From Nevskia soli (GTDB lineage Bacteria; Pseudomonadota; Gammaproteobacteria; Nevskiales; Nevskiaceae): 39,003 nt of DNA. The translations under genes and the position numbers were made by a program. The stretch's first letter is position 1, and every line of letters starts with the position of its first letter. Where the stretch lies: positions 1 to 39,003 of the forward strand of contig JAMFRN010000239.1 in NCBI GenBank assembly GCA_026224805.1, given 5' to 3'. This document shows, in pieces, positions 3,703 to 18,720 of this stretch. The notes under the pieces were generated by a model that did not search any database, had not been told where the DNA came from, and was given only the letters and a program-made list of their open reading frames with translations.

Positions 3703-4599
3703 TCAGGCGGCTGGATCGGTTTCCAGAATCTGCTCCGCTGCTTCCTCCGGCGCGGGCCATTCTTCCGTCCCGATCGGCTGGAGATCGACTGACGGTCCGC
3801 TGCCGTTGTCGCTGAAGCGGAGCCGATAACGTTCTCCCAGCTGGGGCTGCGGCCCATCCGGCCACAGGGTACGGAAGCTGGTGCTGTCGGTGAACACGGA
3901 AGGCAGGGTTTCGACCTGCTCGATCCGCTGTCCCGGCCGCGGCCGCCTGCGGGCCGCGTCGGCCAGTGCGTACGGCAGCGCGAACTCGACCCGCGTGCCG
4001 GGCTGGATGAGGATGCGGTGACGCACGCGCCGGCCGTCGGTGCGCCCCGGGCCGCCCGGTTCCGAACTCAGCGCGGGCCTGAATTCAAGACCGCCCAGGA
4101 TACTCAGCTCCCCGGCCTTGCTGACCGAGGCGATGCGGCAGCCGAGCACCGTGAGTTGGCCGGTGACGCGCCGGGTTTTCGCGGCTGTATTGAGATTGAT
4201 CCTTGCTTTCACCGGGCGCGGCGAGGAGCTGGCGAACTCGAACAGGGCGGCAGCCACCGCCGCGGCATCGAGTCCTTCGCTGTACTGGGTGGAAGCTTCC
4301 AGCGCGGAGGTGACGACCGAGGCTTCGCCGCGCAGGGCAGTGCGGTCGCAGCGGTCGAGCGAGTAGGGGCTGGTGCCGCGGATCACCAGGTGCGCATTGG
4401 CCCAGGGATAGGCCAGCCACGAGGGATACAGCGAGTAGTTGCACTCGCGGAACGCAAAATTCCGGTCCACGACTTGCAGCCGTAGCTCTGGCAAGGCCGG
4501 GCGAACCCCGCCGGCGGTGTGATTCTTCGCATGCACTGCATCGTTCCCTGGGCCAGCAACCGCACGCGCCCCTGGCGGGCGCCCCTTTTGTGTGGCCAT
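3703..4599 (-). CDS. Uncharacterised protein
   Basis: I do not recognise this 298-residue protein. It has no clear signal peptide or membrane helix. The start is Arg/Pro/Gly-rich and the middle (about 40-250) alternates beta-strand-like segments, including L-R-L-Q-V-V-D-R-N-F-A-F-R-E, T-G-Q-L-T-V-L-G and G-T-R-V-E-F-A-L-P-Y. The last 50 residues are acidic and Pro-rich. The ATG at 4597-4599 is preferred over a TTG four codons upstream. It is divergent from the MbnP gene and shares a 376-base upstream region with it, so a common regulator is possible. The codon pattern looks genuine, but a function cannot be assigned. Confidence 0.65.
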   Translation of the reverse strand: MATQKGRPPGARAVAGPGNDAVHAKNHTAGGVRPALPELRLQVVDRNFAFRECNYSLYPSWLAYPWANAHLVIRGTSPYSLDRCDRTALRGEASVVTSALEASTQYSEGLDAAAVAAALFEFASSSPRPVKARINLNTAAKTRRVTGQLTVLGCRIASVSKAGELSILGGLEFRPALSSEPGGPGRTDGRRVRHRILIQPGTRVEFALPYALADAARRRPRPGQRIEQVETLPSVFTDSTSFRTLWPDGPQPQLGERYRLRFSDNGSGPSVDLQPIGTEEWPAPEEAAEQILETDPAA

Positions 4600-4975
4600 G
4601 TAATAGCGCAAGCTGGGCTGCGGAAAAAATGCTGTGCGCGTCTATGCATATAACAGGCTGGCAGGTGCAAGCCCGCGGACCGCGCGCGACGGAAGACAGG
4701 CGCCGCCGCGCCTGTGCTCACGGATCCGGCGCATTTCCGGAATCGCCAATGTTTACAGCACCTTTCGCTGCCCATCGCGCCCGCGGCGGATGCGTACGTG
4801 CTGCCGGTTCGTTCTATCGCCGAGGCTTTGCCTCATCGATGCGGCCGGTGTGCCGCTGCGTAAACCATCTATGAATAGCCCGATTCGATCTCGAAAACCG
4901 GTGTTTGCCGTGCGACGGCCAAACCTATGATTGCATGCCGCGCGCATGTCGCCGGCAGTGGCTCAGGAACCGAAC
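4600..4975. promoter_or_regulatory. Divergent intergenic region upstream of the MbnP/MbnH locus
   Basis: These 376 bases separate the leftward unknown gene from the rightward MbnP gene and must hold both promoters. Parts are AT-richer than the surroundings (for example 4625-4655 and 4745-4765), as expected of promoters. I see no CueR-type or other recognisable metal-regulator site, and no confident -35/-10 pair. An A-G-G-A ribosome-binding sequence at about 4965 decides the MbnP start. Confidence 0.4.
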
Positions 4976-5773
4976 ATGAAAAGAAAGATGAATCTGGCGG
5001 CGCGCCGGTTGGCCGCTGCATGGCTGTTGTTGCTCGCCGGTTGCGGTCATGGCGCAGCGCAGGGCGGCTTGCCGCTGCGTATCGAGATCAGCCATGTGGT
5101 GGGCGATGCGCCGTTGCAGCTTGGCGACAGTTACAAGACCGCCGCCGGCGATGTATGGAGCGCCGAGCGCCTGCGCTATTACCTGAGCAACTTCCGCCTG
5201 CGCCGCGCCGACGGCAGCTGGTTCGTCAATCCGCAAAGCGCGGACAGCAGCCGCGGCTATTTCCTGGTGGACGAGGCGGATGCGGCATCGAAGCAGTTCC
5301 AGATCGGGCCACTGCCGGCGGGAACCTATAGCGGCATCGAGTTCCTGGTCGGCGTCGATGCGACGCGCAACGGCGCCGGCGCGCAGACTGGCACGCTCGA
5401 TCCGGCGCGCGGCATGTTCTGGACCTGGAACACCGGCTATATCTTCTTCCAGTTCGAGGGACATTCGCCGCAGTCCAGCGATGCCGAGCATGCGCTGACC
5501 TGGCACGTCGGTGGCGGCACGGGTGCACCGGCGCGCAGCGTATTCCTGCAATTCCAGTCGCCGGTGGAGATTAGCGCGGAGAACAGCGCGGAACTGCACT
5601 TGCATGCCGATCTGGCGCGGCTGTTCGACGGCGCGCATGTGCTGCATCCGGCGACGCAGCCCACCGCCATGGATGCGGCTGCCTCGGCCGAGGTTGCGGA
5701 CAACAGCGCTGGGCTGTTCCGCATCGACCATGTGCACAAGCTGCCGAAAGCGGGGCTCGCGGCGGGCCTGTGA
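4976..5773 (+). CDS. mbnP: MbnP family copper-binding lipoprotein
   Basis: The 265-residue protein has a lipoprotein signal with lipobox L-A-G-C (Cys23), so it is probably membrane-anchored in the periplasm. Family features are R-L-R-Y-Y-L-S-N-F-R-L (65-75), the G-x-L-P-A-G-T-Y-like turn (111-118) and G-M-F-W-T-W-N-T-G-Y (146-155) followed by F-E-G. In studied MbnP proteins one Trp is oxidised to kynurenine by the partner MbnH and then helps bind Cu(I) with two histidines. Candidate Trp residues here include W61, W149, W151 and W176; which one is modified cannot be read from the sequence. The stop overlaps the GTG start of the MbnH gene (GTGA), a sign of coupled translation. The ATG at 4976 has a ribosome-binding site; an upstream ATG at 4931 would spoil the signal peptide. 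No methanobactin precursor or mbnB/mbnC gene is present. Confidence 0.85.
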   Translation: MKRKMNLAARRLAAAWLLLLAGCGHGAAQGGLPLRIEISHVVGDAPLQLGDSYKTAAGDVWSAERLRYYLSNFRLRRADGSWFVNPQSADSSRGYFLVDEADAASKQFQIGPLPAGTYSGIEFLVGVDATRNGAGAQTGTLDPARGMFWTWNTGYIFFQFEGHSPQSSDAEHALTWHVGGGTGAPARSVFLQFQSPVEISAENSAELHLHADLARLFDGAHVLHPATQPTAMDAAASAEVADNSAGLFRIDHVHKLPKAGLAAGL

Positions 5774-6801
5774 AGCGACCGGCGCTATGGTTGCTGGGGG
5801 TGCCGCTGCTCGTCGTGGTGATGGCCGCGCCGTTGGCGCGCGCCATGATCGCGGCGCACGCCACCCCGCGCCTGCAGGTGCCGCAAGGCTGGCCCGCACC
5901 GCGTTACGACTTCGCCGGCAACCCCGTGACTGCGGCCGGCTTCGCCCTCGGGCGCCGCCTGTTCTACGACCCCATCCTGTCGCGCGACGGCAGCGTCGCC
6001 TGCGGCAGCTGCCACCAGCAGTTCGCCGCGTTCGCGCACCTGGATCATCGCGTCAGCCATGGCATCGGCGGCGTCAACGGCAAGCGCAACACGCCGGGCC
6101 TGTTCAATCTGGCCTGGCAGCCGGACCTGATGTGGGACGGCTCGGTGCATCACCTGGAAATGCAGCCGGTGGCGCCGATGAGCAATCCGGTTGAGATGGG
6201 CGGCAGCTTAGCACTGGCGGTGGACAAGCTGCGCCGCGATGCGCGCTATCCCGAATTGTTCGCGCGGGCTTTCGGTTCGCCGGGCGTGGATTCGCAGCGC
6301 CTGCTGCGCGCGCTGGCGCAGTTCACCGGCACCCTGGTATCGGCGGATTCGCGCTACGACCGCTATGTGCAAGGGCGGGAAGCCTTCACTCCGCAGGAGC
6401 ATGAAGGCCTGGACCTGTTCCGCCAGCATTGCGCCGCTTGCCACCGCGAGCCACTGTTCAGCGATTTCAGCTATCGCAACAACGGCCTCGATGCCGCGCC
6501 GCGCGATGCCGGGCGCGCGGTCATCAGCGGCCGCGCCGAGGATCAGGGCCGCTTCCGCGTGCCCTCGCTGCGCAATGTGGCCCTGACCGCGCCGTATATG
6601 CACGATGGCCGCTACGAAACCCTGGAGCAGGTGCTCGATCATTACGCCGCCGGCATCCAGCCTTCGCCCACGCTCGATCCGTTGCTAGCCCATGGTGTTC
6701 CCCTCACCGCCGGGGAACGCGAAGCGCTGCTGGCCTTCCTCGACACCCTGAGCGATGAAAATTTCATTCACGACCGGCGTTTTGCCGAGACCCACGATTG
6801 A
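5770..6801 (+). CDS. mbnH: MbnH-like di-haem MauG/cytochrome c peroxidase family enzyme
   Basis: The 343-residue protein has an N-terminal hydrophobic segment (6-25) and two c-type haem motifs, C78-G-S-C-H82 and C221-A-A-C-H225, in the order and spacing of bacterial di-haem peroxidases and MauG. The G-R-x-L-F-Y-D-P-x-L-S region (61-71) and the T-A-P-Y-M-H-D-G-R loop near residue 268 are typical of this family. In known cases MbnH forms a high-valent bis-Fe(IV) state and converts a Trp of MbnP to kynurenine. The GTG start overlaps the MbnP stop, and the stop (TGA, 6799-6801) is 5 bases before the next gene's ATG, so the genes form one operon. A peroxide-detoxifying role is a less likely alternative because of the MbnP partner. 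Confidence 0.9.
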   Translation: MKRPALWLLGVPLLVVVMAAPLARAMIAAHATPRLQVPQGWPAPRYDFAGNPVTAAGFALGRRLFYDPILSRDGSVACGSCHQQFAAFAHLDHRVSHGIGGVNGKRNTPGLFNLAWQPDLMWDGSVHHLEMQPVAPMSNPVEMGGSLALAVDKLRRDARYPELFARAFGSPGVDSQRLLRALAQFTGTLVSADSRYDRYVQGREAFTPQEHEGLDLFRQHCAACHREPLFSDFSYRNNGLDAAPRDAGRAVISGRAEDQGRFRVPSLRNVALTAPYMHDGRYETLEQVLDHYAAGIQPSPTLDPLLAHGVPLTAGEREALLAFLDTLSDENFIHDRRFAETHD

Positions 6802-6806
6802 CTGTC

Positions 6807-7367
6807 ATGACCAAGTCCGGCGCTGCCTTGTCGTATCTGCTTGTCCTCTCACTGTGCTGCGCAGCGGGCGCGGTATCAGCGCACGAAGGCCATCACGAGG
6901 CCGAGCCCGAAGCGGCTGCTGTTCCCGCAGCACCGCCGGCTCCGCGTGCGACGCTGGATACGCCGCAGGTCGAGCTGGTCGTGCAGCGTGAGGGCGGCGA
7001 CATCGTGCTGTACCTCGACGACTACGCGACGAATGCGCCCTTGAACGGCCTGCTGCTCAGCGTGCGCAGCGGCACGCTGACGCTGCAGGCGGCGCAGAGC
7101 GGCGAGGGCGCCTACCGCATCGCGGGCGATCTGATCGATGGCCGCGGCGAACAGCCCCTGGAGATTTCGGTGCATGGGGGCGGCATCGACGCGCAGTTGC
7201 AGGCCGTGCTGCCCGCCGCCGTGCAGCCCGGCGGGGCGCCTGAAGCGGCTCCGCACAACGCCTGGTGGCTCGCCGCCGTGCCGGCAGCCCTGATCCTGCT
7301 CGGCGGGGGGTGGTTGCTAAGGCGCAGGCACGAGAGGCGCGTGGCGCCAGGATTCGGCAACGCCTGA
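6807..7367 (+). CDS. Membrane-anchored periplasmic protein with His-rich N-terminus
   Basis: I do not recognise a named family. The 186-residue protein has a signal peptide ending A-V-S-A, after which the mature chain would begin H-E-G-H-H-E. A Pro/Ala-rich linker follows, then a beta-rich domain of about 85 residues (roughly 45-130), another linker, and a C-terminal helix (about 152-173) with a positively charged tail, giving a periplasmic domain tethered to the inner membrane. The ATG at 6807 is preferred; a TTG at 6798 would overlap the MbnH stop. Its stop overlaps the RND permease start (ATGA). The position between MbnH and the pump suggests a metal-delivery or adaptor-like accessory role; this is inference. 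Confidence 0.75.
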   Translation: MTKSGAALSYLLVLSLCCAAGAVSAHEGHHEAEPEAAAVPAAPPAPRATLDTPQVELVVQREGGDIVLYLDDYATNAPLNGLLLSVRSGTLTLQAAQSGEGAYRIAGDLIDGRGEQPLEISVHGGGIDAQLQAVLPAAVQPGGAPEAAPHNAWWLAAVPAALILLGGGWLLRRRHERRVAPGFGNA

Positions 7368-10300
7368 TGTTCGCCCATATTGTCGAAGCCAGCCTGCGTG
7401 GCCGGGTGCTGGTGCTTGCCGCTGCCCTGGTCTTGCTGGCGCTGGGCGTGCGCGCGGCGCGCGAGCTGTCGGTCGATGTATTACCGGACCTGACGCGGCC
7501 GATGGTGATGGTGCAGGCCGAGACGGCGGGTCTGGCGCCCGAAGACGTGGAAAGCCTCGTCACCTTTCCTATCGAAACCGCCCTGAGCGGTCTGCAGGAT
7601 GTAGCGCGGATCCGTTCGGTGACCAGCCCCGGCCTGTCGGTGGTCTATGCCGATTTCGACTGGAACAGCGATCCCTGGCGCGATCGCCAGCTGGTGGCCG
7701 AGCGCATCGACGCGATCCGCTCGCAGCTGGCGCCGATCGCCGAGCCGCGCATCGGTCCGCTCACTTCGTTGATGGGTGAAATCCTGCTGGTATCGCTGCA
7801 ATCCCGCAATGGCGACACCAGCCCGCAGCGCCTGCGCGAACTGGCCGACTGGACCCTGCGGCCCAAGTTGCTGGCCCTGCCCGGCGTGGCGCAGGTGCTG
7901 GCCATCGGCGGCGAGGTCAAGCAATACGAGATCCACCCCGATGCGCAGCGCATGCACCTCGACAACATCAGTCTGACGCAGATCAACGAGGCGGCGCGCG
8001 GCTTCGGCAACAACACCGGCGCCGGCGTCTCCTTTGCCGGCGGTAGCGAGTACGCCATCCGCGGCATCGGCCGGCCGTTCCGGCTGGAGGACCTGGCGCA
8101 GGCCGCGGTGGCCTGGCGCGGCAACGGCCCGATCCGTCTCGGCCAGGTGGCCGACCTGGCGGTCGGTGCGCGGCTCAAGCGCGGCGACGCCGGTTTCAAC
8201 GGCAAGCCGGCGGTGATCCTGTCGATCCAGAAGCAGCCCGGTGTGGATACGCTGCAGCTGACCCAGGCGGTGGCCGCGGTACTCGCCCAGCGCGAGGGAC
8301 GCCTGCTGCCGGACGATGTGCAGGCGGTCAATGTGTTCCGCCAGGCCGATTTCATCGAAGAATCGATTGCCAACGTGCGCCAGGCCTTGTTCCATGGCGC
8401 CCTGATCGTGGCGTTGACGCTGCTGCTGTTCCTCGCCGGCGGGCGTGCCACGCTGGTCTCGCTGGCGGCGATTCCGTTGAGCGTTGCCGCCGCCATCCTG
8501 GCTCTGGGCCTGTTCGGGCTTTCGGTCAACACCATGACCCTGGGCGGGTTGGCCATCGCCGTCGGCGAACTGGTGGATGATGCCGTGGTGGGCGTGGAGA
8601 ACGTCATTCGCCGCCTGCGCGAGAACGCCCTCAGGCCGGTGCCGGAGCCCGCCGCGCGAGTCATCGCCAGCGCCACGGTGGAAGTGCGTTCCGGCATTCT
8701 CTACGCCACCCTGCTGATCGTGCTGGCCTTCGTGCCGCTGTTCGCCTTGCAGGGGGTGGAGGGGCGCCTGTTCGCGCCGCTGGGTGTGGCCTATATCGCG
8801 GCCATTCTCGCCAGCCTGGTGGTGGCGGTGACGCTGACCCCGGCGCTGAGCTATTTCGCTTTTGCGCGCCGCGCCGCGCTGCCGCAGGAGCGCGGCTGGC
8901 TGCATGCGCTGAAGGCACGCTACGTCGGCGCGCTGCAAGCGGTACTGAGGTTTCCGCGCATTCCCCTGCTGCTCACCGCCCTGCTGTTGCTCGGCGCGCT
9001 GCTGGCGGGCTGGCAATTGCCGCGTGCCTTCCTGCCGGCGTTCAACGAGCGCACCCTCACCCTGAACCTGCTGTTGCAGCCGGGCGTATCGCTGGATGCA
9101 TCCAACGAGATCGGCCTCGCGGCCGAGCGGCTGGTGCTGGGCGTGCCGGAAGTGGCGAGCGTGGGCCGCCGCACTGGCCGCGCCGAGCAGGACGAGCATG
9201 CCGAGGGCCTGCATTACTCGGAGTTGGACATCGCCTTGCGTCCCGGCGGGCGGCCGCGCGCACAAGTGGTTGCGGATCTGCGCTCGCGCCTGTCGGCGCT
9301 GCCGGCGACGCTGATCTTCGGTCAGCCGATCTCGCACCGCCTGGATCATCTGCTGTCGGGTGTGCGTGCGCCGCTGGCGGTGAAGCTCTATGGCGACGAT
9401 CTCGGCCAGTTGCGTCAGCTGGCGGACCAGGTGGTGGAGCGGCTGCGCGGCATCGCCGGACTCGCCGATGTGCAGGCCGAGCCGCAAGCGGAAACACCGC
9501 AGCTGCGGGTACGGCTGGATCCGCGCCGCGCCGCGCAATACGGTGTGTCGCCGCCGCGGGTGCAGGACGCGCTGGGCGAACTCACCGTGGGTGGCACGGT
9601 ATCGCGCATCGTCGAAGGCGAGCGCCGCTTCGACCTGGTGGTGCGCCTGCCGCAGGCCTCGCTCGATCCCGCCACCATCGGCGACATTCCCATCGACACG
9701 CCGGCCGGCGCGGTGCCGCTGCGCTGGCTGGGCGACATCGAAGCGGGCAGCGGCCCCAACCAGATTCTGCGCGAAGACCTGCGCCGGCGCATCGCCGTTG
9801 CCGCCTATCCGGGCGCGGGCCGTTTCGACCAAGCGGTACAGACGGCGCGCGAGCGTCTGGCCGATCTGCCGCTGCCGGCCGGCTACGAACTGCACCTGGA
9901 GGGAGAATTCCAGGCCCAGGCCGCTGCCGCGCAGCGCATCGGCGGGCTGGCGCTGTTGTCCCTGTTGCTGATGCTGGCGGTGCTGTATGCGCGATACCGT
10001 TCGCTGCGTTTCAGCTTGATCATTCTCGGCAACGTGCCGCTGGCCATGATCGGCGGCGTCGCCGCCCTGGCGCTGACGCATACGCCGCTGTCCGTCGCCA
10101 GCATGGTCGGCTTCGTCGCCCTGGCCGGCATCGCCGCGCGCAACGGCATCCTCAAGCTGAGCCGTTACCTGCAACTGGCGCGGCAGGGCGAGCCCTTCGG
10201 CGATGCGCTGATCCTGCGCGGCTCGAGCGAGCGCCTCACGCCGGTGCTGATGACCGCCCTGATCGCCGCCGCGGCCCTGCTGCCCCTGCTCGGCTCGGCC

Positions 10301-10468
10301 GATGCGCCGGGCAAGGAAATCCTGCACCCGGTGGCACTGGTGATTTTCGGCGGACTGATCAGCGGCACCTTGCTGGACAGCTTCATCACGCCGCTGCTGT
10401 TCCGGCGCTTCGGCGCGTTGCCCTTGCGGCGTCTGCTGGGCGATACCGAGGCGGCAGCCGCGGATTGA
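7367..10468 (+). CDS. Heavy-metal RND efflux permease, CzcA/CusA family
   Basis: The 1033-residue protein has the full RND layout: TM1 (about 11-30), a periplasmic loop, TM2-6 (about 340-510), a second large loop and TM7-12 (about 865-1020). It lies in the inner membrane and would use proton import to drive export of metal ions or a similar substrate. The TM4 segment G-G-L-A-I-A-V-G-E-L-V-D-D-A-V-V-G-V-E-N carries acidic residues E401, D404, D405 and E411 where heavy-metal RND pumps hold their proton-relay carboxylates. I did not see the methionine ladder that marks CusA copper/silver pumps, so the cargo is open. The ATG at 7367 overlaps the previous stop and gives normal length. No outer-membrane factor gene is adjacent; the two adaptors lie 5 kb downstream. 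Confidence 0.93.
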   Translation: MFAHIVEASLRGRVLVLAAALVLLALGVRAARELSVDVLPDLTRPMVMVQAETAGLAPEDVESLVTFPIETALSGLQDVARIRSVTSPGLSVVYADFDWNSDPWRDRQLVAERIDAIRSQLAPIAEPRIGPLTSLMGEILLVSLQSRNGDTSPQRLRELADWTLRPKLLALPGVAQVLAIGGEVKQYEIHPDAQRMHLDNISLTQINEAARGFGNNTGAGVSFAGGSEYAIRGIGRPFRLEDLAQAAVAWRGNGPIRLGQVADLAVGARLKRGDAGFNGKPAVILSIQKQPGVDTLQLTQAVAAVLAQREGRLLPDDVQAVNVFRQADFIEESIANVRQALFHGALIVALTLLLFLAGGRATLVSLAAIPLSVAAAILALGLFGLSVNTMTLGGLAIAVGELVDDAVVGVENVIRRLRENALRPVPEPAARVIASATVEVRSGILYATLLIVLAFVPLFALQGVEGRLFAPLGVAYIAAILASLVVAVTLTPALSYFAFARRAALPQERGWLHALKARYVGALQAVLRFPRIPLLLTALLLLGALLAGWQLPRAFLPAFNERTLTLNLLLQPGVSLDASNEIGLAAERLVLGVPEVASVGRRTGRAEQDEHAEGLHYSELDIALRPGGRPRAQVVADLRSRLSALPATLIFGQPISHRLDHLLSGVRAPLAVKLYGDDLGQLRQLADQVVERLRGIAGLADVQAEPQAETPQLRVRLDPRRAAQYGVSPPRVQDALGELTVGGTVSRIVEGERRFDLVVRLPQASLDPATIGDIPIDTPAGAVPLRWLGDIEAGSGPNQILREDLRRRIAVAAYPGAGRFDQAVQTARERLADLPLPAGYELHLEGEFQAQAAAAQRIGGLALLSLLLMLAVLYARYRSLRFSLIILGNVPLAMIGGVAALALTHTPLSVASMVGFVALAGIAARNGILKLSRYLQLARQGEPFGDALILRGSSERLTPVLMTALIAAAALLPLLGSADAPGKEILHPVALVIFGGLISGTLLDSFITPLLFRRFGALPLRRLLGDTEAAAAD

Positions 10469-10797
10469 GCACGAACTGCGGGCAACTGCGTTTTCAATAA
10501 CCGGATGGCATGTGTTCAGTACCAAAACGCAGGTGCCGTAATGACTTTTTATCGCGACACCGTGCAGTCGACTGCATCAATCCGGCGGCACCGATCATGG
10601 AGCGATGCGCTAGTTCCTCAAGGTATTAGCCGCTGCGGAAAAAGTCTAAAAACGGGGCCTCGTCATTTGCCCTGCCTGTGTATTGTCAATGCTCTGCGGA
10701 TGCTGCATTGATCCGACGGAAAGGGGAGGGGGCCCGGCGCCTGGGATTTTGTCGCAGTCCTCTCTTACACAAGGGACATATGCTCAGGAGCAGGACT
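10469..10797. promoter_or_regulatory. Intergenic region upstream of the 951-residue secreted protein gene
   Basis: The 329-base gap after the permease gene is AT-richer in its first 170 bases and holds a 14-bp perfect palindrome (10563-10576). It probably contains a promoter for the large secreted protein gene. A strong A-G-G-A-G ribosome-binding site lies at 10786-10790. I see no convincing gene. Confidence 0.45.
10563..10576. repeat. 14-bp perfect palindrome, possible operator
   Basis: TGCAGTCGACTGCA is a perfect dyad in the only long gap of the metal locus, about 220 bases upstream of the next start codon. It has no loop, so a binding site for a dimeric regulator is more likely than an RNA hairpin. 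The regulator is unknown. Confidence 0.4.
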
Positions 10798-13653
10798 ATG
10801 AATTCGCCCTCTCGCAAGAGAACGCGATCGCTTGGACGTTGGCTGGCCGCTTGCGCCGCCGCGGTTTTATTTGGAGCCGCGGGTGCGGCATCGGCACAAA
10901 CCGGCAGCACCATACTGGGTGATCTGACCGGCTCGAGCGGACTGGCCAGCGATGTTGGCGGCACGGTGACCAACCTGCTCGGCAGTGTCGAGAACATTGC
11001 GACCACCGCGCTTGGCGTCAAGACCACGGCAGCCGCTGTCTCCGGCGCCCCGGCTGCCATCAACAAGTACACTGGCCAGATCATCCAGAACGGTGCCGTG
11101 CTGCTGGTGTGGACCGGTGACGGCTGCTCCACCCCGCTGTGCGATCCGACTACCAGCCAGGACTTCCTGGCGGTGGTGGACGCAGAGCCGAACTCGACCA
11201 CCTACGGCAACGTCATCTGGACCGCGGAGCTGCCGAACGTCCTGGTGTCCGATGTCGCCGGCAATCTACTGGGCGCGCTCGGTTCGGATTCGCATAACGA
11301 TCCGCACCATATGCTGAGCTACACCTCCTACATCTCCGGCGGCGGCGACGGCCTGATCCAGGGCCACAAGTACACCTTCGCCGGCGGCGTGATCAGCAAG
11401 AACGTGTTCCGCTTCGACATTTCCAGCGTACGCAATATCTCGAAGGCGGCAATCGCGGTGTGTGGCACGCAGCCGCGCCGCTCCTCCCTGACCGACGACT
11501 TCGTGGTCATGCCGGCTCCAGGCGCCAACCACAAGATCATGTACACCTACATGAGCAACTATGTGTACGGCCCCGGCGGCACGGTCACGGAAATCGATCC
11601 GGGCCGCAATGCGCCGACCCTTCTGGGTCTGTGCGTCGCCTCGATCCCGGCACCGGTGCCGCTGCTGCAGAGTTCCGAGCAGCTGGGCCTGGTCGGCGAG
11701 CTGACGGCCGGCCTGGACGGCCACCCGGACAACAATGCGCTGCTCGGCCACGTGGGCATCACCGAATATCCCGGTATGGTCAAGACCAACCAGGTGCGCA
11801 ACCCCACCGAGTACACCAGCTATCCGGATACCCGCCTGTCGCGCTCGTTCAACGAAGGCGTGTTCTATTTCGGCAACAAGGACATCGGTCTGGAAGCCCT
11901 GCCGCACGGCATGGCGCTGACCTATGACGGCAAGTATCTGGTGCAGTCCGACTACGCCGTTGCCGCCAGTATCGGCGCCGCCGCCATCAATGGTGCGCTG
12001 CGCGGCCTGTGCAACCAGGAGCCCCTGGTCACCGGCGGCCAGAGCATCAGCGCCGGCCCGCTCGGCGTCTGCGGTTCCACCTTCGGCAGTTCGGTGCGCG
12101 TCTACCCCACCAGCAACAGCTACACCAACGGCAAGACCATCGACTCGCTGACCCAGGCCGGCATCTATGCCAGCAATCCCTACATCCGCTCGGTCAGCGC
12201 CGTGCCGGACGGTCCGCGCCACGAGGAAGTGATCTTCCACGAGGAAAACGAGGGCCTGATGGCGTTTGGCCTGCCGCATCAGTCGCATCACGTGATTGGC
12301 CAGAAGGGCTGGGTCAATCTCAGCGACCCCAGCTTCGACAAGGCGGTCTCCAGCGCCGGCGTGGCGGCCAATGCCGCTTCCAAGGTCACCGTGACCAGCG
12401 CCGCCCCCGGCACCGCCGACTACGTGCCGCATGACGGCGCCTTTTCCGCGGCGATGTGCGGCGGCGTGCTGTTCTACAGCCCCGACATCACCCTGGACGG
12501 CAATACGCCCAACGTCTACGGCGGCACGGGTCCGTACTGGCGCGCGGTGTATGACGTCGGCCCCTGCACCGGCGTGTCCTATTTCAACATCACCGATGAC
12601 GACCGCTTCCTGGTCCTGCCGATCTCCGGCATCGAAAGCCCCGCTTCGATCGATGCGGACGGCGCGGTGGAGTTCGATCGCGACTACCCGCGTGAGCACA
12701 GCCGTCGCGTGCTGACGGTGGACATCCGTCCGCTGATTTCCAAGGGGCATGCCGATACCGCGGCCACCAAGATCCAGTGCGACTTCGAAGCACCGGATGC
12801 GAACCGCACTGCCAACACCACCCTGGGTCTGCCGGCCACGCGTGCCGACGAATCCGGCGGTGTCAGCGCCGTATTCAACATCCTGCGGCACAACAACGAG
12901 GCCGATGATTGCCCGCGTATCCGCGGCGCCGTCGGCCAGTTCGAAACCGGCCCGCTCGGCACCGGTCTGGCAACGACGGAGTCGTCCAACACCAGCGAGT
13001 CTGGCGTCGGCTACTACCGTCTGGGCCAGACCATCCAGGAACTGGAGTCCGGTACCCCGGGCAACATCTTCCTCGATGCGGCGCAGGTGGGCGGCGAGCC
13101 CTCCGGCACCACCGGCGGTGGCCCGGGCAGCGGCAACCTCAACTCGATCCAGAACCTGTACACCCATGGCGGGCCGCATTTCACCGTCATCGACCGTATT
13201 GGTTACCAGCCGACGCCTGCGGGCCAGGGTGGTTATCTGGATCTGACGCCGCTCAACGACGGTACCGGCCTCAAGGGCGTGCCGCGCGATACCGTGGTAG
13301 GCCAGCAGCCGGCCACCAACACCGAGCGCTATGCCTTCATCCAATACTTCGTCGAGCTGAACCACGTGCCGCTGCCGGGTACCGGTTCCGACGGCGACCG
13401 TACGGTTTGCCTGGGCAAGGTCGATCGCGCCACGGGTGCGACGGTGCTGGATACGTCCTTCACCGATGAAATCCTTGGCACGCCCTGCCTGGACTTCGAC
13501 AGTGCGGCGCGCGATGCCTGGCTGTGGCCGGGTGCACGCGGCGCCAAGGGCGCGGCCAAGCCGCACTCGGCGATCTTCGAACGTGATGGCGCGGCGCTGT
13601 TCGGTCCCGGCTACTACCCGTCGGCTCCGCTCAACCTGAGCACCACCAACTGA
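10798..13653 (+). CDS. Large secreted protein, SBP56/methanethiol-oxidase-like beta-propeller (tentative)
   Basis: The 951-residue protein has a clear Sec signal (A-G-A-A-S-A, cleavage near 33). Several stretches resemble SBP56-type propellers: a D-F-L-A-V-V-D-A-E-P-N-S-T-T-Y-G-N-V-I segment like the family's repeated L-A-V-V-D-x-D-P-x-S-x-x-Y start, a D-P-H-H-M box, H-G-M-A-L-T-Y-D-G-K-Y-L-V and D-D-D-R-F-L-V. It is about twice the usual SBP56 length, with inserts around 360-420 and at the C-terminus. A bacterial SBP56 member is a copper-dependent methanethiol oxidase whose gene lies near SCO1 and MauG-like genes, which fits the MbnP/MbnH neighbours. The start at 10798 has A-G-G-A-G eight bases upstream; an in-frame ATG at 10780 is possible. 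Two hairpins follow the gene. The family call is by eye and could be wrong; another propeller family is the main alternative. Confidence 0.6.
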   Translation: MNSPSRKRTRSLGRWLAACAAAVLFGAAGAASAQTGSTILGDLTGSSGLASDVGGTVTNLLGSVENIATTALGVKTTAAAVSGAPAAINKYTGQIIQNGAVLLVWTGDGCSTPLCDPTTSQDFLAVVDAEPNSTTYGNVIWTAELPNVLVSDVAGNLLGALGSDSHNDPHHMLSYTSYISGGGDGLIQGHKYTFAGGVISKNVFRFDISSVRNISKAAIAVCGTQPRRSSLTDDFVVMPAPGANHKIMYTYMSNYVYGPGGTVTEIDPGRNAPTLLGLCVASIPAPVPLLQSSEQLGLVGELTAGLDGHPDNNALLGHVGITEYPGMVKTNQVRNPTEYTSYPDTRLSRSFNEGVFYFGNKDIGLEALPHGMALTYDGKYLVQSDYAVAASIGAAAINGALRGLCNQEPLVTGGQSISAGPLGVCGSTFGSSVRVYPTSNSYTNGKTIDSLTQAGIYASNPYIRSVSAVPDGPRHEEVIFHEENEGLMAFGLPHQSHHVIGQKGWVNLSDPSFDKAVSSAGVAANAASKVTVTSAAPGTADYVPHDGAFSAAMCGGVLFYSPDITLDGNTPNVYGGTGPYWRAVYDVGPCTGVSYFNITDDDRFLVLPISGIESPASIDADGAVEFDRDYPREHSRRVLTVDIRPLISKGHADTAATKIQCDFEAPDANRTANTTLGLPATRADESGGVSAVFNILRHNNEADDCPRIRGAVGQFETGPLGTGLATTESSNTSESGVGYYRLGQTIQELESGTPGNIFLDAAQVGGEPSGTTGGGPGSGNLNSIQNLYTHGGPHFTVIDRIGYQPTPAGQGGYLDLTPLNDGTGLKGVPRDTVVGQQPATNTERYAFIQYFVELNHVPLPGTGSDGDRTVCLGKVDRATGATVLDTSFTDEILGTPCLDFDSAARDAWLWPGARGAKGAAKPHSAIFERDGAALFGPGYYPSAPLNLSTTN

Positions 13654-13675
13654 CAAGCCAATGATGGATGTCCGG

Positions 13676-13709
13676 TTCGGCTTCACGTCATCCGTGACGT
13701 GAAGCCGAA
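13676..13709. repeat. 15-bp perfect inverted repeat downstream of the large secreted protein
   Basis: Arms 13676-13690 and 13695-13709 pair perfectly around a T-C-C-G loop. No T-run follows, so it is not a classic terminator. It may protect the 3' end of the transcript or be a protein-binding dyad. A second hairpin with a T-run lies 20 bases further on. Confidence 0.6.
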
Positions 13710-13729
13710 ACAAATCATGGGATGAGGAT

Positions 13730-13759
13730 GCGCCGCCCGCGCAAGCGGGCGGCGCTTTT
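13730..13759 (+). terminator. Intrinsic terminator after the large secreted protein gene
   Basis: An 11-bp perfect GC stem (13730-13740 with 13745-13755) with a G-C-A-A tetraloop is followed by T-T-T-T-C. It stands 76 bases after the stop codon and 60 bases before the parvulin gene, so the downstream genes need read-through or their own promoter. Confidence 0.8.
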
Positions 13760-13818
13760 CCCGTCCAGGCCATCCAGAAAATTTCGCAACACGATCTGCA
13801 GCACCAATGGAGTAACCG

Positions 13819-14688
13819 ATGTCCGCATTGAAACTGACGCTGGCGCTCGCCGCCCTGATCGCGGCCCAGGCCGCCTACGGTGACGACACGTCCGTCAAAT
13901 CGAATTCCGGCCTGGCCGCCGACGTTATCGTCAACGGCCAGCCGATCAGCCAGAACCATGTCACGCTGATGAGCGCCAACTTCAGCCCCGACAAGACCTT
14001 GCCGGGCCCCGAGGCGAAGTCCGCCGCCCGTTCCGAACTGATCACCGAGGAACTGCTGGCGCAGCAGGCGCGCAAGGAAGGCGTGGACAAGCAGCCGGAA
14101 GTCGCCGACCAGATCGCCTTCCAGGAGCGGGCCATCCTGTCGCGCGCCTACCTGGAAGACTATTTCGCCAAGAACCCCATCACCGAGGAGAGCCTCAGGT
14201 CAGCCTACGAGTGGAATCGCGCCAACGGCAAGATCGTCGAATACAAGGTGCGGCAGATCCTGGTGCCCACGGCCGAGCAGGCCAACCTGGTGATCGAGAA
14301 GCTCAACAAGGGTGAGGATTTCGTGGCACTGGCCAAGGTCTATACGCAGGATCCCGGCGGGCAGACCAATGGCGGCGATCTGGGCTGGTTCCGGCCGGAT
14401 ATCTTCGTCGACCACAATTTCAGCGACGGCGTGGTAGCGCTGAAGAAGGGCGAGTACAACAAGACGCCGCTGCGCACCCGCTTCGGCTGGCATGTCATCA
14501 AGATCGATGATGGCCCGCGCCCCGTACAGAACCCGCTGCCCTATGACGCCCTGGAAGATAACGTCAAGCAGGCTATACGCCAGAAGACCGCGCAGATCCG
14601 GCTGGAAAATCTCACTTCCAGGCTCTCCGCCAGCGCCAAGGTGACCGGCCCTGGAGCCCTTGCCTCAAACGCCAAGTCGGCGCGCTGA
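13819..14688 (+). CDS. Periplasmic peptidyl-prolyl isomerase, PpiC/parvulin type
   Basis: The 289-residue protein has a signal peptide (A-A-Y-G-D-D, cleavage near 21), an N-terminal SurA/PrsA-like helical part beginning V-I-V-N-G-Q-P-I-S, and one parvulin domain at about 135-227 (V-R-Q-I-L-V-P, G-G-D-L-G-W-F, F-G-W-H-V-I-K-I-D-D). Parvulins speed proline isomerisation and act as chaperones for exported proteins. Its place between the large secreted protein and the RND adaptors suggests a dedicated folding helper, perhaps for the former; that is inference. The ATG at 13819 follows G-G-A-G-T about nine bases upstream. Confidence 0.92.
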   Translation: MSALKLTLALAALIAAQAAYGDDTSVKSNSGLAADVIVNGQPISQNHVTLMSANFSPDKTLPGPEAKSAARSELITEELLAQQARKEGVDKQPEVADQIAFQERAILSRAYLEDYFAKNPITEESLRSAYEWNRANGKIVEYKVRQILVPTAEQANLVIEKLNKGEDFVALAKVYTQDPGGQTNGGDLGWFRPDIFVDHNFSDGVVALKKGEYNKTPLRTRFGWHVIKIDDGPRPVQNPLPYDALEDNVKQAIRQKTAQIRLENLTSRLSASAKVTGPGALASNAKSAR

Positions 14689-14719
14689 ATCGACCGTTCC
14701 CCTCACAATGAGCTCAACC

Positions 14720-15388
14720 ATGAAATACGCCCTGAACGCCGCGGCCCTGGCCACCGTGCTGCTGCTTGGCGCTTGCGCCGGATCGGGCGGCAAGCCCGAT
14801 GCGGTTGCCGCCGCGCCTGCGGTCGCAGTCCCTGACGGCTTGTCCGATGAAGACCGGATCACCCTGTTCGTTCACTATGCGCGCAGCGGCGACCTCGAAG
14901 CCGTGAAGAAGAGCCTCGCCGAAGGACGCGTGTCGGTGAATGCCTTCGATTCGCTGGACCAGAGCGCCCTCATCGCAGCCCTCAGCAACAACTCTCTCGA
15001 CGAAGTGAAGTATCTGCTGGCGCATGGGGCAGACCCCAGTCTCCCCGATCATGCCGGTTGGGCGCCGCTGCACTTCGCCGCCTGGTTCGGCAGCAGCTCG
15101 GTGGTGCTGAAGGAACTGATCGATCACGGCGCCAATATCAATGCGCGCAATGACCGCGGCATCACGCCTCTGTATTTCGCCAGCGTTTCGGGGCATGAGG
15201 CGCAGGTCAAGGCGCTGCTGGCGCTCGGCGCCGACCGCAGCCTGGCCTCCAAGACTGGCTATACGCCGCTGCGCGCGGCCCAGGTCAAGGGGTATTACGC
15301 CGTCGTTGCCTTGCTGGATCCCAATGCCGCCAAGGCTGCGCCGGCCGCGGCAGCTGCGCCGGCGTCCGCGGGCGCCGGTACGCACTGA
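14720..15388 (+). CDS. Ankyrin-repeat lipoprotein
   Basis: The 222-residue protein starts with a lipoprotein signal whose lipobox is L-G-A-C (Cys19). About four ankyrin repeats follow (roughly 70-200), seen in the successive G-W-A-P-L-H-F-A-A, G-I-T-P-L-Y-F-A-S and G-Y-T-P-L-R-A-A cores with H-G-A-D and H-G-A-N turns. Ankyrin repeats bind other proteins, so this is probably a periplasmic scaffold or inhibitor. An Ala-rich tail ends the chain. The ATG at 14720 gives a compact signal peptide; an in-frame ATG at 14708 cannot be excluded and neither has a strong ribosome-binding site. It lies 5 bases before the first adaptor gene. Confidence 0.88.
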   Translation: MKYALNAAALATVLLLGACAGSGGKPDAVAAAPAVAVPDGLSDEDRITLFVHYARSGDLEAVKKSLAEGRVSVNAFDSLDQSALIAALSNNSLDEVKYLLAHGADPSLPDHAGWAPLHFAAWFGSSSVVLKELIDHGANINARNDRGITPLYFASVSGHEAQVKALLALGADRSLASKTGYTPLRAAQVKGYYAVVALLDPNAAKAAPAAAAAPASAGAGTH

Positions 15389-15393
15389 CATCC

Positions 15394-16473
15394 ATGACAA
15401 GGACAGGCGCCGCCATCGCGCTGCTGGGCGTGCTGGGCTGCGCTGCCGCGCTGGCCCACCAGCAGGAGGCGGCGCCCCAGGTCTGGCTGGACAAGCCGGC
15501 GCAGCGTCAGGCCGGCATCCGCACCCTGGCACTTGCGGCGGCGTTGCCGTCGATACGGCTGCCCGCGGTGGTGGTGGTGGATCCGCGGCGCGACCTGCGC
15601 ATCGCCGCTTCCCAGGATGGCGTGGTGGAAGCGGCCGGCCCGCAGTTGCCGGTCGCGGGGCAGCGGGTGAAGGCCGGGCAGGTGCTGGCCTGGCTGCGTC
15701 CGGTGCTGTCGCAGCCCGACCGGCGCGATATGGGCGCGGACCTGGCGGTGGCGCAGCGTGATCTCAAGCAGGGGCGCATCCAGATCGACCGCTATAACAT
15801 CGACGAGCATCAGAAACTCGAAGTGAAGCTGTCGACCCCATCGGTCGAGATCATCACCAACTACCACAGCGCCGAAGTGCGCAATGCCGAGTTGAGCGGG
15901 GCGCTGCAGGACCGCCTGCCCCTGCTCGCGCCGCGCAGCGGTACCATCCTGCGCAGTCCGGCTGTCGCCGGGAAGGTGGCGCCGGCGGGGCAGACCCTGT
16001 TCGAGATCAGCGCGCCCGGCGCGCTCGCGGTGGAAGCCGAGTACGTCGACGACGACGTCGATGCCGATGCCGTGCAGCAGGCGCTGACTGTCGACGGCCG
16101 CAGCCTGCCATTGCGTTTTGTGGGCGCCAGCTATGATGCCGCGCTGCGCTCACACCGTGCGCTCTACGCCGTGGCGACGGAGGATGCGGGCCTCAGCGTC
16201 AACCAGCCGCTGCTGCTGGACGCGCCGCGTGAGCGCAGCGGGCCGGCGCAGTACGCCGTGCCCGCGAGCGCCGTGTTCACCCACGACGGACATGCCTGGG
16301 TGTGGCTGCACCAGGATGCGCAGCATTTCGTGGCGCGGCAGGTGGCACTGGTGAATCCGGCCGACGGCGAGAGCGTGCTGATCGAGGGCGGATTGGGCCA
16401 GGGCGAGCGGGTCGTCGCCGAGGGCGTTGACGCCCTCAATGCCGCTGCCCGCACGCCGGAGGGTGCGCCATGA
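15394..16473 (+). CDS. RND periplasmic adaptor subunit (HlyD/CusB-like), first copy
   Basis: The 359-residue protein has an N-terminal signal (A-A-L-A, then H-Q-Q in the predicted mature chain; a weak alternative lipobox V-L-G-C also exists). A lipoyl/barrel-sandwich half (D-G-V-V-E-A-A-G, V-A-G-Q-R-V-K-A-G-Q-V-L-A) is followed by a short helical hairpin (about 110-170) and the second half (L-A-P-R-S-G-T-I, A-P-A-G-Q-T-L-F-E-I). Adaptors bridge the inner-membrane pump and the outer-membrane channel. The hairpin is short, and I see no CusB methionine cluster. Its stop overlaps the start of the second adaptor (ATGA). The likely partner is the permease at 7367-10468. Confidence 0.88.
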   Translation: MTRTGAAIALLGVLGCAAALAHQQEAAPQVWLDKPAQRQAGIRTLALAAALPSIRLPAVVVVDPRRDLRIAASQDGVVEAAGPQLPVAGQRVKAGQVLAWLRPVLSQPDRRDMGADLAVAQRDLKQGRIQIDRYNIDEHQKLEVKLSTPSVEIITNYHSAEVRNAELSGALQDRLPLLAPRSGTILRSPAVAGKVAPAGQTLFEISAPGALAVEAEYVDDDVDADAVQQALTVDGRSLPLRFVGASYDAALRSHRALYAVATEDAGLSVNQPLLLDAPRERSGPAQYAVPASAVFTHDGHAWVWLHQDAQHFVARQVALVNPADGESVLIEGGLGQGERVVAEGVDALNAAARTPEGAP

Positions 16474-17636
16474 TGCGGCGCGCCGTGTTGCTTCTGGGTC
16501 TGAGCGTCGGTTTGCTGGCAGCGGCAACCTGTGCCGCGCATGAGGGCGAGGTGCATCGGGATGAGGGCGGCGCGCTGCCTCTGTCCGCCGCCGCGCTGGC
16601 CGAGCGGCCGCGGCGCCTGCCGGACGGCGAGTTGTTCCTGCCCAAGCCGGCGCAGAGGCTGCTCGGTATCCGCACGGTTGCCTGGTCGGCTGATGTCGCG
16701 GACCAGCCGCTGTCCCTGGTTGCGGAAGTGCAGGCACAACCTGCCGAGGCCCTGACCCTGGCCGCACCCGAGCCTGGGCGGCTGGAGCCGGGGGATGCGG
16801 CCTGGCCGCTGCAGGGCCAAAGCCTGCATGCGGGCCAGGTGCTGGCCTGGCTGCGCCCACAGATCAATCAGCGGGATGCCGCGCGGCGTCGCGCCCAGAT
16901 CGCGGATTTCGACCAGAAGCTGATCATCGCCAATCTCAATGTCGAACGTCTGAACATGCAGAGCGCCGTCAACGGCGACCAGAAGGTCGCCACCGGCAAT
17001 ATCTACCTGGAAGAGGCGGTGGCGGAGCGCGATGCGCTGCTGCATGAGCGCGAGCAGATTGCCGACAGCTTCGAAGATCGGGTGCCTCTGCGGGCGCCGG
17101 TTTCCGGCCGCGTGATCGCCGCGCCGGCCCGCATCGGCGATGTGGTGGCGGCGGGGCAGATCCTGTTCCAGGTCAACGACCCTTCGCACCTGCGTCTGGC
17201 CGTGCTTGGCTTCGACCCCGGATTGGCTCGGCGTCTGCGCTCGGTGCATGCCAATCTCGGTGCTGCCGGCGACGTGGAGCTGGTTTATCGCGGGCAGGAA
17301 CCGCTGTCCGGTGCGCCGGGGTGGCGGCTGTTGTTCGATCCGCTGGAGAAGGGCGGCGCTGCCGCCAGCGATGATGACGCACTCTTGCCGGGGCAACTGG
17401 TGGAGTTGCGCGCGCAGGCCGCCGCGGCGGATAGCGCCACGTTGCCATCCGGTGCCTGCGCCATCGATGCGGGAGGCGTGGCCGTGGTCTGGGTGCACCG
17501 CGCACCCGAACGCTTTGTACCGCTGCGGCTGAAATCCTGCGACTCCGGCATCGCGCCGAGACCCGGCGGTACGCAGCTGGCGCAAGGCGACCGGCTGGTG
17601 ATCCACGGGGCTGGCCTGCTGTCACAGTACCGCTAG
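16470..17636 (+). CDS. RND periplasmic adaptor subunit (HlyD/CusB-like), second copy
   Basis: This 388-residue adaptor has a signal peptide after which the chain would begin A-H-E-G-E-V-H or H-E-G-E-V-H. Biotinyl-lipoyl halves are visible (L-A-A-P-E-P-G-R-L-E-P, H-A-G-Q-V-L-A-W-L-R-P; then L-R-A-P-V-S-G-R-V-I, V-A-A-G-Q-I-L-F-Q-V) around a helical hairpin of about 60 residues (150-210). It shares the Q-V-L-A-W-L-R-P box with the first adaptor, so the two are probably diverged duplicates. Two adaptors beside one permease suggest a mixed or alternating adaptor ring, or one that serves a second pump elsewhere. It is the last gene of the tightly spaced series; 69 bases follow before the next gene. 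Confidence 0.88.
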   Translation: MMRRAVLLLGLSVGLLAAATCAAHEGEVHRDEGGALPLSAAALAERPRRLPDGELFLPKPAQRLLGIRTVAWSADVADQPLSLVAEVQAQPAEALTLAAPEPGRLEPGDAAWPLQGQSLHAGQVLAWLRPQINQRDAARRRAQIADFDQKLIIANLNVERLNMQSAVNGDQKVATGNIYLEEAVAERDALLHEREQIADSFEDRVPLRAPVSGRVIAAPARIGDVVAAGQILFQVNDPSHLRLAVLGFDPGLARRLRSVHANLGAAGDVELVYRGQEPLSGAPGWRLLFDPLEKGGAAASDDDALLPGQLVELRAQAAAADSATLPSGACAIDAGGVAVVWVHRAPERFVPLRLKSCDSGIAPRPGGTQLAQGDRLVIHGAGLLSQYR

Positions 17637-17705
17637 CGCGTTTTCGGTTTAGCCGCCTACATCTCCCGCGTTGGCGAGATCATTAGTTTCCATTCGGAGA
17701 GGCCG

Positions 17706-18419
17706 ATGCAGCGTCACGAAACAAGGGTGCGGACGCTATTGGCTGTGACCACGCTTTGGGGGTGTGCCGGGTTCGCCCTGGCGGATGCGGCGCTTCCGCC
17801 AGACGCCGCGGTGGACCTGATCAATACCAATTCGCCGGCTTTGTCCGCCAGCGTGAATTGCCGGTTTATTTTCGAATACACCGGGAGCGATCAGGCTGCC
17901 GGGAGCGGCGGGGCAGGGACCATCAGCCGAGGAGTCACCTATTCGGGCGCGCTGTTTGACGGAAGGCTTGGATTTTCCGGCGATCGACAGTCGATTTCCG
18001 GACTGGGCCTGGCTTTCGATTTCGACCTGATGAACGACTCCGGGCACGGCCGCATGGCGCGTGAGTCGGGATCGAGCAATGCCGAAGCCGCAATCCGGCT
18101 CGGGAACGTTGCGTCGGCGGGCTTCACCATTGCGGATGTGACGCCGCAAGACAAGTCCATTTCGCTGGACTGGCTGCGGGTCGCGCTTCCACCGGAATCC
18201 TTCTCTTCGCTGGATCGGGTCGCGGGAGAGTACAGGGCAAAGGGATGGAATTCCGGCAGGAATGCCGGCGCCTGCGCCTTGGGCGCCGCGAGGATACTTG
18301 AAGTCCGATGGAACGGTCTCGACGGAAGCCCGGGTAAGACAGACATATTGTGGTCCGGTGATCCGGCTGGGCTTGCGCAAGCGCTCAAGACCATTCTGCA
18401 GTCGGCCGGGAAATCATAG
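17706..18419 (+). CDS. Secreted protein of unknown function
   Basis: I do not recognise this 237-residue protein. It has a signal peptide (C-A-G-F-A-L-A-D-A, cleavage near 27) and a beta-rich mature part with G-V-T-Y-S-G-A-L-F-D-G-R-L-G-F-S-G and L-G-L-A-F-D-F-D-L repeats of polar and hydrophobic residues. A G-G-A-G-A-G-G ribosome-binding-like stretch precedes the ATG. Codon use is less GC-biased than that of the adaptors upstream. It may be the last gene of the metal locus or a separate unit; no terminator is visible between them. Confidence 0.65.
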   Translation: MQRHETRVRTLLAVTTLWGCAGFALADAALPPDAAVDLINTNSPALSASVNCRFIFEYTGSDQAAGSGGAGTISRGVTYSGALFDGRLGFSGDRQSISGLGLAFDFDLMNDSGHGRMARESGSSNAEAAIRLGNVASAGFTIADVTPQDKSISLDWLRVALPPESFSSLDRVAGEYRAKGWNSGRNAGACALGAARILEVRWNGLDGSPGKTDILWSGDPAGLAQALKTILQSAGKS

Positions 18420-18720
18420 TTTGCGGGTTTGAGTGCCAAAGCCTGGACCAGCCCTCCTGCGCACGCAAGCGGATGAAATGACTTGGCATATTGGCTGTCC
18501 GTCATAAATGGTCAATAAATCTGCAACACCACTGTGCAAGGCTCGCACTGCGGATAAATATCGGGCTCGCCCCAGGGGATTTGAATGGTGGAATGCCGGC
18601 ACAGGGCTTCCACATGCGTAGCGGCACGACAAGACTAGCGTCACGCCGATGGCGGGACGAACCCCGGCAAAATTTATCGACGCACCATCCGCTCATCCGT
18701 ATTCAAGAAAAGGCTTTCAA
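18420..18720. other. Intergenic region before the DUF5132/ATPase cluster
   Basis: This 301-base gap is AT-richer than the genes around it, especially 18495-18570, and probably carries the promoter of the DUF5132 cluster. I see no gene, no strong hairpin and no recognised operator. Confidence 0.4.

Follow-up and report, generated by a model that had tools for sequence, protein, structure and literature searches.

Nine genes on the forward strand of a 39,003-nucleotide stretch of Nevskia soli DNA (contig JAMFRN010000239.1; here called the window, and part of a draft genome of 267 contigs that is 84% complete) form a conserved unit at positions 4976–17636, and we see an even chance that this cluster makes and equips one periplasmic metalloprotein. 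This would be a large secreted protein (LSP) of 951 amino acids, a probable oxidoreductase provided with its own maturation and metal supply. The initial annotation had proposed a copper sensor, store or exporter. The metal theme that it saw across the locus is borne out by the family assignments of the parts, but the locus is re-read here as serving a probable enzyme because its best-conserved product is neither the pump nor the MbnP lipoprotein but LSP, a divergent SBP56-like propeller by prediction. LSP is taken as a probable copper oxidoreductase matured in the periplasm on account of the analogy with the mtoX-SCO1-mauG operons and the thiocyanate dehydrogenase loci that are compared below.

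The block is inherited as a unit. In a survey of 85 genomes of the order, LSP was present in 27, and MbnP of the window type was found in the same 27 genomes (Fisher p = 2.5e-21, a value that overstates independence, the genomes being related). One extra MbnP match outside the LSP genomes, in G053, was weak (29% identity, E 4e-4). Strong orthologs of the parvulin of the system (at least 59% identity) were confined, among the 85 genomes, to those with LSP, 26 of the 27 having one; the one LSP genome with only a generic parvulin (G009) has its LSP at a contig end. Gene order was then compared in 26 loci from 25 genomes, 18 spanning the whole block and 8 cut by contig ends. The genes for MbnP, MbnH, the pump, LSP, the parvulin, the ankyrin protein and the two periplasmic adaptors (MFPa and MFPb) kept their order and strand in 18/18 complete loci, and a small gene between mbnH and the pump gene was present in 14 of these (absent in L038, L040, L041, and L046). 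The cut loci are consistent as far as they go, except L053, which has a 1.65-kb gap between the adaptors. The view that the locus is built as one system, for which a search for co-occurrence of its two halves had been proposed as a check, is upheld by the shared genomes and the fixed order. Its limits also stand as originally drawn, because the flanking open reading frames (ORFs) are not conserved in related loci: within the stretches covered by the 26 loci, seven ORFs downstream of MFPb had no match at E ≤ 1e-6, and three ORFs upstream of the block had matches in the near relative L031 alone.

Of the eight proteins compared, LSP is the slowest-changing, with a mean identity over the best local stretches of 74.7%, followed by the parvulin (64.6%), MbnH (64.1%), the pump (60.6%), the ankyrin protein (55.2%), MbnP (50.3%), and the adaptors (41–44%). 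The pairwise distances of the eight correlate with each other (r 0.79–0.94). The unit is patchy inside genera, occurring for example in 2/11 genomes of group g9, and related loci were found in Nevskia, Solimonas, Hydrocarboniphaga, Panacagrimonas, Stenotrophobium, and others, with a few named as other groups such as Verrucomicrobia (L060) and Rhodospirillales (L080, L084). It is very improbable that the metal-pump group and the LSP-foldase group merely travel together without a shared function. Hairpins probably separate transcripts, and L085 has an LSP-parvulin-ankyrin row with the first half absent from the 2.3 kb upstream; however, the presence pattern of the two groups is identical across the survey and their order fixed, LSP is placed between the pump and its adaptors, and pumps of the heavy-metal efflux (HME) type, though of another subtype, also adjoin distant LSPs.

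LSP (10798–13653) appears to be nearest to SBP56, a seven-bladed propeller family with copper-dependent enzymes, the propeller of LSP being a predicted one. An NCBIfam search with LSP gave no match, but a profile of 30 LSP relatives searched against the PDB recovered one chain at E ≤ 1, the SBP56 structure 2ECE (E 5e-4), and profile-profile comparison of 19 LSP relatives with ten SBP56 sequences from other genomes gave a probability of 97.6 (E 3.3e-12). An AlphaFold2 model of the window LSP (pLDDT 65, pTM 0.77) had N2O reductase and thiocyanate dehydrogenase at Foldseek ranks 1–6, all weak (E 1e-3 to 9e-3; TM-scores of about 0.2–0.3). With VIA-align, 2ECE was second for this model (Z 21.8, 386 aligned residues, 17% identity) and gave the longest alignment among 50 matches. 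The model of L100, a compact LSP homolog of 517 residues (pLDDT 76, pTM 0.81), had 2ECE as its best match both in Foldseek (E 2.5e-17; next 7.6e-11) and in VIA-align (Z 32.3, 369 aligned, 19% identity). Lower in its Foldseek list were cytochrome cd1, thiocyanate dehydrogenase and the methylamine dehydrogenase heavy chain (also in the MauG complex). Z alone was not taken as proof, since VIA-align places many unrelated propellers at nearby Z. N2O reductase, which ranked first in Foldseek for the window model, was outside the first 50 matches for L100; its hallmark is a CuA domain plus a seven-His CuZ ring, and LSP has no CuA or cupredoxin family match and has five invariant His plus two nearly invariant. 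Thiocyanate dehydrogenase was among the Foldseek matches of both models but was not recovered by the LSP profile search of the PDB.

In the 30 LSP relatives H170, H171, D233, D234, H370, H794, and H923 (window numbering) are invariant, and H545 and H634 nearly so. In an alignment with methanethiol oxidase, the HH pair and H923 fall on the HH and C-terminal His of that enzyme, the C-terminal part being aligned only with relaxed settings. The His set of the Hyphomicrobium enzyme (His89, His90, His140, and His412) has been proposed as copper ligands, according to the accessible parts of that report (PMC5739008); LSP keeps the HH and the C-terminal His and has Asp at the place of His140, and so retains two of the three motifs proposed as SBP56 copper ligands. 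For the human protein, the accessible text of PMC10362175 states that the His residues of HH and HxxH are required for activity, and that mutation of HH left the copper content undiminished. By sequence comparison, LSP stands next to SBP56 as a family of its own, in which the ligand set has changed. Export of LSP by Sec is suggested because the twin-arginine pattern is absent in 25 of the 28 relatives with a delimitable N-terminal region, the window protein included; it is present in L074 and L076 (RRVAL), and in L064 only within an apparently overlong start.

Some further LSP-like sequences were noted. A plasmid search gave five Streptomyces records with 27–32% identity over 14–25% of the protein, and one of these plasmids (L102:7785-9530) encodes a 581-amino-acid LSP-like protein within a sulfur-assimilation cluster with sulfite reductase, phosphoadenylyl-sulfate reductase, and a sulfonate transporter, a hint only at organosulfur chemistry. 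A 411-amino-acid lipoprotein-like ORF (L116:1423-2658) combines a marginal SBP56 score with the LSP-like C-terminal motifs GPHW, WPHGKTG, and AHG, and is perhaps a link between the two families. An in-frame TAG occurs in the LSP gene of Solimonas aquatica (L035, L063), and a TGA in the LSP pieces of G031.

Beyond the order LSP is rare (3/369 genomes of a sample of the class, the genome of the window included), and more LSP loci were found in Thiohalobacter, other Gammaproteobacteria, and one Nitrospirae assembly. Fourteen distant loci reach at least 1.5 kb past LSP (L058, L088–L093, and L095–L101; L087 and L094 are too short to count), and they are partly non-independent, L088 and L089 coming from one assembly. 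CusB and/or CusA follow close downstream of LSP in 13/14 of these loci, the exception being L100, and the full Met triad is present in 11/11 aligned CusA proteins (the partial CusA of L091 was left out). Ankyrin proteins are also frequent in distant LSP loci, though such repeats match each other easily. Two more loci, L085, with an LSP that is ~42% identical followed by parvulin and ankyrin genes, and L086, with its LSP at a contig end, are considered further below. These comparisons suggest an older core of LSP and an HME pump. MbnP/MbnH appears to have been added in the window clade, because the distant LSP genomes have CusBA-type pumps and mostly no MbnP; the split adaptor domain likewise appears to belong to the window branch, and the parvulin is shared with L085.

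The first two genes of the block encode an MbnP-family lipoprotein (4976–5773; lipobox Cys23, WxW motif W149/W151) and an MbnH-like diheme enzyme of the MauG type (5770–6801). MbnP matches PF20243 with 167.3 bits (cut-off 27, E 4.8e-49) and does not reach the cut-off of TIGR04052, MbnP_like_WxW (48.5 vs 140 bits); C23, W149, W151, and H177 are invariant in 21/21 aligned sequences. MbnH matches CCP_MauG (E 9.4e-54), has 6E1C as its best PDB match (E 4.9e-48) and stays below the cut-off of TIGR04039 (231.6 vs 362.85 bits). Its two CxxCH motifs and Tyr292 are invariant in 21/21, and Tyr292 aligns with a Met of the bacterial cytochrome c peroxidase 3O5C, at a position which we take to be that of the axial heme ligand. 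The initial assignment of the pair thus holds, and because both proteins fall under the TIGRFAM equivalog cut-offs they represent, in sequence, a divergent branch. The accompanying statement that no methanobactin gene lies beside the pair also agrees with our scans, in which none was recognized there; the single PF05114 (MbnB_TglH_ChrH) protein of the genome, from a family wider than MbnB, lies on another contig of the 84% complete assembly (G000:C223:7571-8353), and a methanobactin locus was rejected. The closest plasmid-borne MbnH relative, from Deinococcus radiodurans (L120:5031-8544), is encoded in a row of MbnP, MbnH, a hypothetical protein, CopC, and CopD.

The third gene (6807–7367) encodes a small membrane-anchored protein with a signal, an HEGHH stretch, a beta domain and a C-terminal transmembrane segment, for which scans of the family libraries gave no match over a family cut-off. 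A hidden Markov model of 18 of these sequences, some with fused MbnH, matched the N-terminus of two Methylobacterium plasmid adaptors (E 2.2e-22 and 2.5e-20 in a database of 4 sequences), and a plasmid search with the small protein itself gave one weak adaptor match that is accounted for by its kinship to adaptor N-termini. The small protein is, in terms of homology, a relative of the N-terminal CzcB-type adaptor domain. In-frame fusion to the MbnH C-terminus in L033, L036, and L047 ties this HEGHH-type domain to MbnH; a similar fusion is probable in the cut contig L055.

Given this pair, it could be proposed that LSP itself is matured by MbnH, which would turn a Trp of LSP into a protein-derived cofactor by oxidation, much as MauG acts on methylamine dehydrogenase, with MbnP in an assisting role only. 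In the accessible text of PMC5739008, MauG genes adjoin mtoX and tryptophan tryptophylquinone is proposed there. The methylamine dehydrogenase heavy chain, as seen above, is among the fold matches; Trp910 of LSP is invariant (30/30) and lies 13 residues before His923, and ORFs with two CxxCH motifs are found between LSP and CusB in L090, L092, and L096. Such a role is nevertheless decidedly unlikely, as the WxW of MbnP is itself invariant, making MbnP the expected substrate, and as, of these three cytochromes, only that of L090 gives a CCP_MauG match, and this below the cut-off. Moreover, the Trp is conserved in the other distant loci too, although none of them has an ORF with two CxxCH motifs adjoining LSP; in L095 two such ORFs are present, but ~7.6 kb upstream.

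The pump (7367–10468) is an HME-type member of the resistance-nodulation-division (RND) family, CzcA/CusA-like, with 735 bits to PF00873 and just short of the cut-off of TIGR00914 (688 vs 701.45 bits). The Cu(I) triad of CusA, a pump of the HME4 class for Cu(I)/Ag(I), is given as M573, M623, and M672 in the accessible parts of PMC8092243, and alignment to CusA places Asn, Tyr617, and His661 at these positions of the window pump. Two motifs, DEHAEG and [S/T/A]HRxDH, are common to 22/22 pumps of the window clade. Two periplasmic adaptors of the CzcB/HlyD type are encoded at the end of the block: MFPa (15394–16473; HlyD_3 E 1.3e-10; RND_mfp E 1.9e-19, 69.8 bits vs a cut-off of 94.9) and MFPb (16470–17636; HlyD_3 E 7.1e-07; RND_mfp E 5.2e-10, 38.8 bits vs 94.9), the latter with an N-terminal AHEGEVH. 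No outer-membrane factor or metal regulator was recognized in the unit by the family library scans. Between LSP and the adaptors lie the genes for the secreted parvulin-type peptidyl-prolyl isomerase (13819–14688; Rotamase_3 E 1.6e-17), a system-specific ortholog, and for the ankyrin-repeat lipoprotein (14720–15388; Ank_2 E 4.7e-27), whose lipobox Cys19 is invariant in 23/23.

These parts could also make up a metal tolerance cassette, in which the HME pump and adaptors export a divalent metal while LSP, MbnP, and the HEGHH protein act as non-catalytic periplasmic buffers. A full HME pump with two adaptors and the His-rich N-termini of the small protein and MFPb would suit such a cassette, as would the replacement of the Met triad by Asn, Tyr, and His, around which conserved Asp, Glu, and His fit divalent ions, and in the one neighborhood examined a close plasmid-borne pump adjoins a heavy-metal P-type ATPase. 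We nonetheless think it unlikely, as the most conserved part is LSP rather than the pump and as the unit has neither a recognized outer-membrane factor nor a recognized metal regulator. A dedicated foldase together with a MauG-type enzyme is, to our knowledge, unusual in efflux operons.

A number of observations weigh against an LSP enzyme of the SBP56 type with its own copper supply. The main warning comes from the pump: as the Met triad of CusA is missing, in 22/22 pumps of the window clade, its substrate may not be Cu(I). Cu(I) export is not supported by the sequence of the pump, its identification as a Cu(I) CusA was rejected, and the ion carried by the pump in this clade may be a divalent one. 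LSP itself scores below the threshold of the Pfam SBP56 family (PF05694; 14.1 bits vs 34), and the His of the SBP56 GPHT motif aligns with D233, a change from His to Asp; for both reasons, LSP as an ordinary SBP56 protein or methanethiol oxidase was rejected. For the window model 2ECE is outside the first 50 Foldseek matches, and the unrelated propeller 1L0Q is tied with 2ECE in Z (22.2 vs 21.8), while for L100 it comes close behind (30.5 vs 32.3). The description of LSP as SBP56-like in the initial annotation therefore finds no backing at the Pfam threshold, but it does in the profile and fold comparisons. As for the gene neighborhoods, no pump was recognized in the 10 kb behind LSP in L100, neither a pump nor MbnP/MbnH was seen upstream of LSP in L085 (2.3 kb covered) and L086 (9.6 kb), and a PF20243 protein occurs in only 1/7 distant LSP genomes (that of L088). 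Finally, two Sphingomonas plasmid neighborhoods of MbnH relatives contain no copper gene.

The mtoX-SCO1/senC-mauG operons encode an SBP56 copper-dependent methanethiol oxidase (PMC5739008, accessible parts) and resemble the window locus in having a secreted protein of the SBP56 fold beside a MauG-type diheme enzyme and a copper-handling protein, with the HH and C-terminal His common to methanethiol oxidase and LSP. However, LSP is about twice as long as methanethiol oxidase and differs in its Pfam score and in its Asp at the GPHT His, and the window locus has no recognized SCO1 and adds an HME pump, two adaptors, MbnP, the parvulin, and the ankyrin lipoprotein. In the thiocyanate dehydrogenase loci of Thiohalobacter and Guyparkeria, as far as the accessible portion of PMC6504805 describes them, the enzyme lies beside CusA and two successive CusB-type adaptors, so that a copper propeller enzyme with a CusA and two CusB can be set beside LSP with its pump and two adaptors. 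Thiocyanate dehydrogenase has its own Tat signal according to that text, in contrast to the suggested Sec export of LSP, is not recovered by the LSP profile, and the words ankyrin and peptidyl-prolyl are absent from the main text of the paper. In both arrangements, in the portions of the two papers that were available, a copper propeller enzyme is accompanied by copper-handling functions of its own.

The MbnP/MbnH pairs described in the available text of PMC3621798, in methanobactin operons and in other places, share with the window a PF20243 WxW lipoprotein and a diheme MbnH in adjoining genes; the window pair differs in having no recognized methanobactin gene beside it, in falling under both TIGRFAM cut-offs and in being tied to LSP and an HME pump. 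With the CusCBA/CzcCBA efflux systems the locus has in common the HME-type RND pump with an Asp in transmembrane segment 4 and the CzcB-type adaptors, but it has no Met triad and no recognized outer-membrane factor, its two adaptors follow LSP, and the N-terminal adaptor domain has a gene of its own or is joined to MbnH. The open-licence literature searched gave no description of the LSP family, of the assembly of nine genes, or of the fusion between MbnH and the adaptor domain. As far as that search reaches, the initial view of the assembly as undescribed is retained, with component families that are known and with LSP as an undescribed branch.

By analogy with these systems we infer the metal, the catalysis, the oxidation of Trp, and the direction of metal flow as follows. 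LSP would be exported, probably by Sec, and folded with the dedicated parvulin into the predicted seven-bladed propeller, in which the conserved His and Asp would bind a metal, most likely copper. It would then act as an oxidoreductase of the SBP56/methanethiol-oxidase type on a substrate that is perhaps an organosulfur compound. MbnH would give MbnP a kynurenine copper site, and MbnP and the HEGHH protein would capture periplasmic metal and hand it over, while the HME pump and its two adaptors would set the periplasmic level of a metal, possibly a divalent ion. The ankyrin lipoprotein may be a scaffold or guard.

A more specific proposal, which we regard as doubtful, is that LSP is the founding member of a new, periplasmic class of metal-ring propeller enzymes, a sister group of SBP56, in which the metal center is loaded within the periplasm by a dedicated RND pump with two adaptors, and that in the window clade a kynurenine-type MbnP, made by MbnH and tethered to the CzcB-derived HEGHH domain, is the copper donor; functionally this class would parallel thiocyanate dehydrogenase and N2O reductase. 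The known members of the superfamily of LSP run methanethiol, thiocyanate, and N2O chemistry. The role of MbnP/MbnH outside methanobactin operons was termed unclear in 2013, in the available text of PMC3621798, which speaks of "mysterious partners." With the pair locked to one conserved partner of the copper-propeller type, that role becomes testable in one gene cluster, and if MbnP is indeed the copper donor to LSP, the pair would gain a defined role outside methanobactin biology. The link of LSP to HME pumps of two subtypes also suggests a role for such pumps in enzyme maturation in addition to resistance.

With regard to the layout of the block, ORF and family scans of the window located all nine genes at the positions given by the initial annotation. 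The junctions are tight, as had been noted: mbnP and mbnH overlap by GTGA (5770–5773), 5 bases separate mbnH (to 6801) from the ATG of the small gene at 6807, and the ankyrin gene and MFPa are also 5 bases apart. The ATGA overlap that had been placed between the small gene and the pump belongs to MFPa/MFPb (16470–16473), whereas the overlap of the small gene with the pump gene is a single base (TGATG, 7365–7369). Two large gaps flank LSP, at 10469–10797 and 13654–13818, and the second holds two strong RNA hairpins on the forward strand (13676–13755; z -5.0 and -4.2), the second of which is followed by TTTT and is terminator-like. Because of these gaps and hairpins the nine genes probably form more than one transcript, possibly several. 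The first hairpin has a 15-pair stem without a T run and could be regulatory. A scan for sigma-70-like promoters at 4500–18500 found 0 where 1.5 were expected, which is uninformative either way.

Downstream of the block the window encodes a P-type ATPase (19938–22073) with a sub-threshold match to a heavy-metal-associated domain, followed by EcsC and DUF445 genes; over the lengths that they cover, the related loci show no counterpart of this region. The window also contains two DUF1302 proteins, at 212–2056 on the reverse strand and at 31201–33150 on the forward strand, a TonB-dependent receptor (25867–28368), and a P450 (34776–36515).

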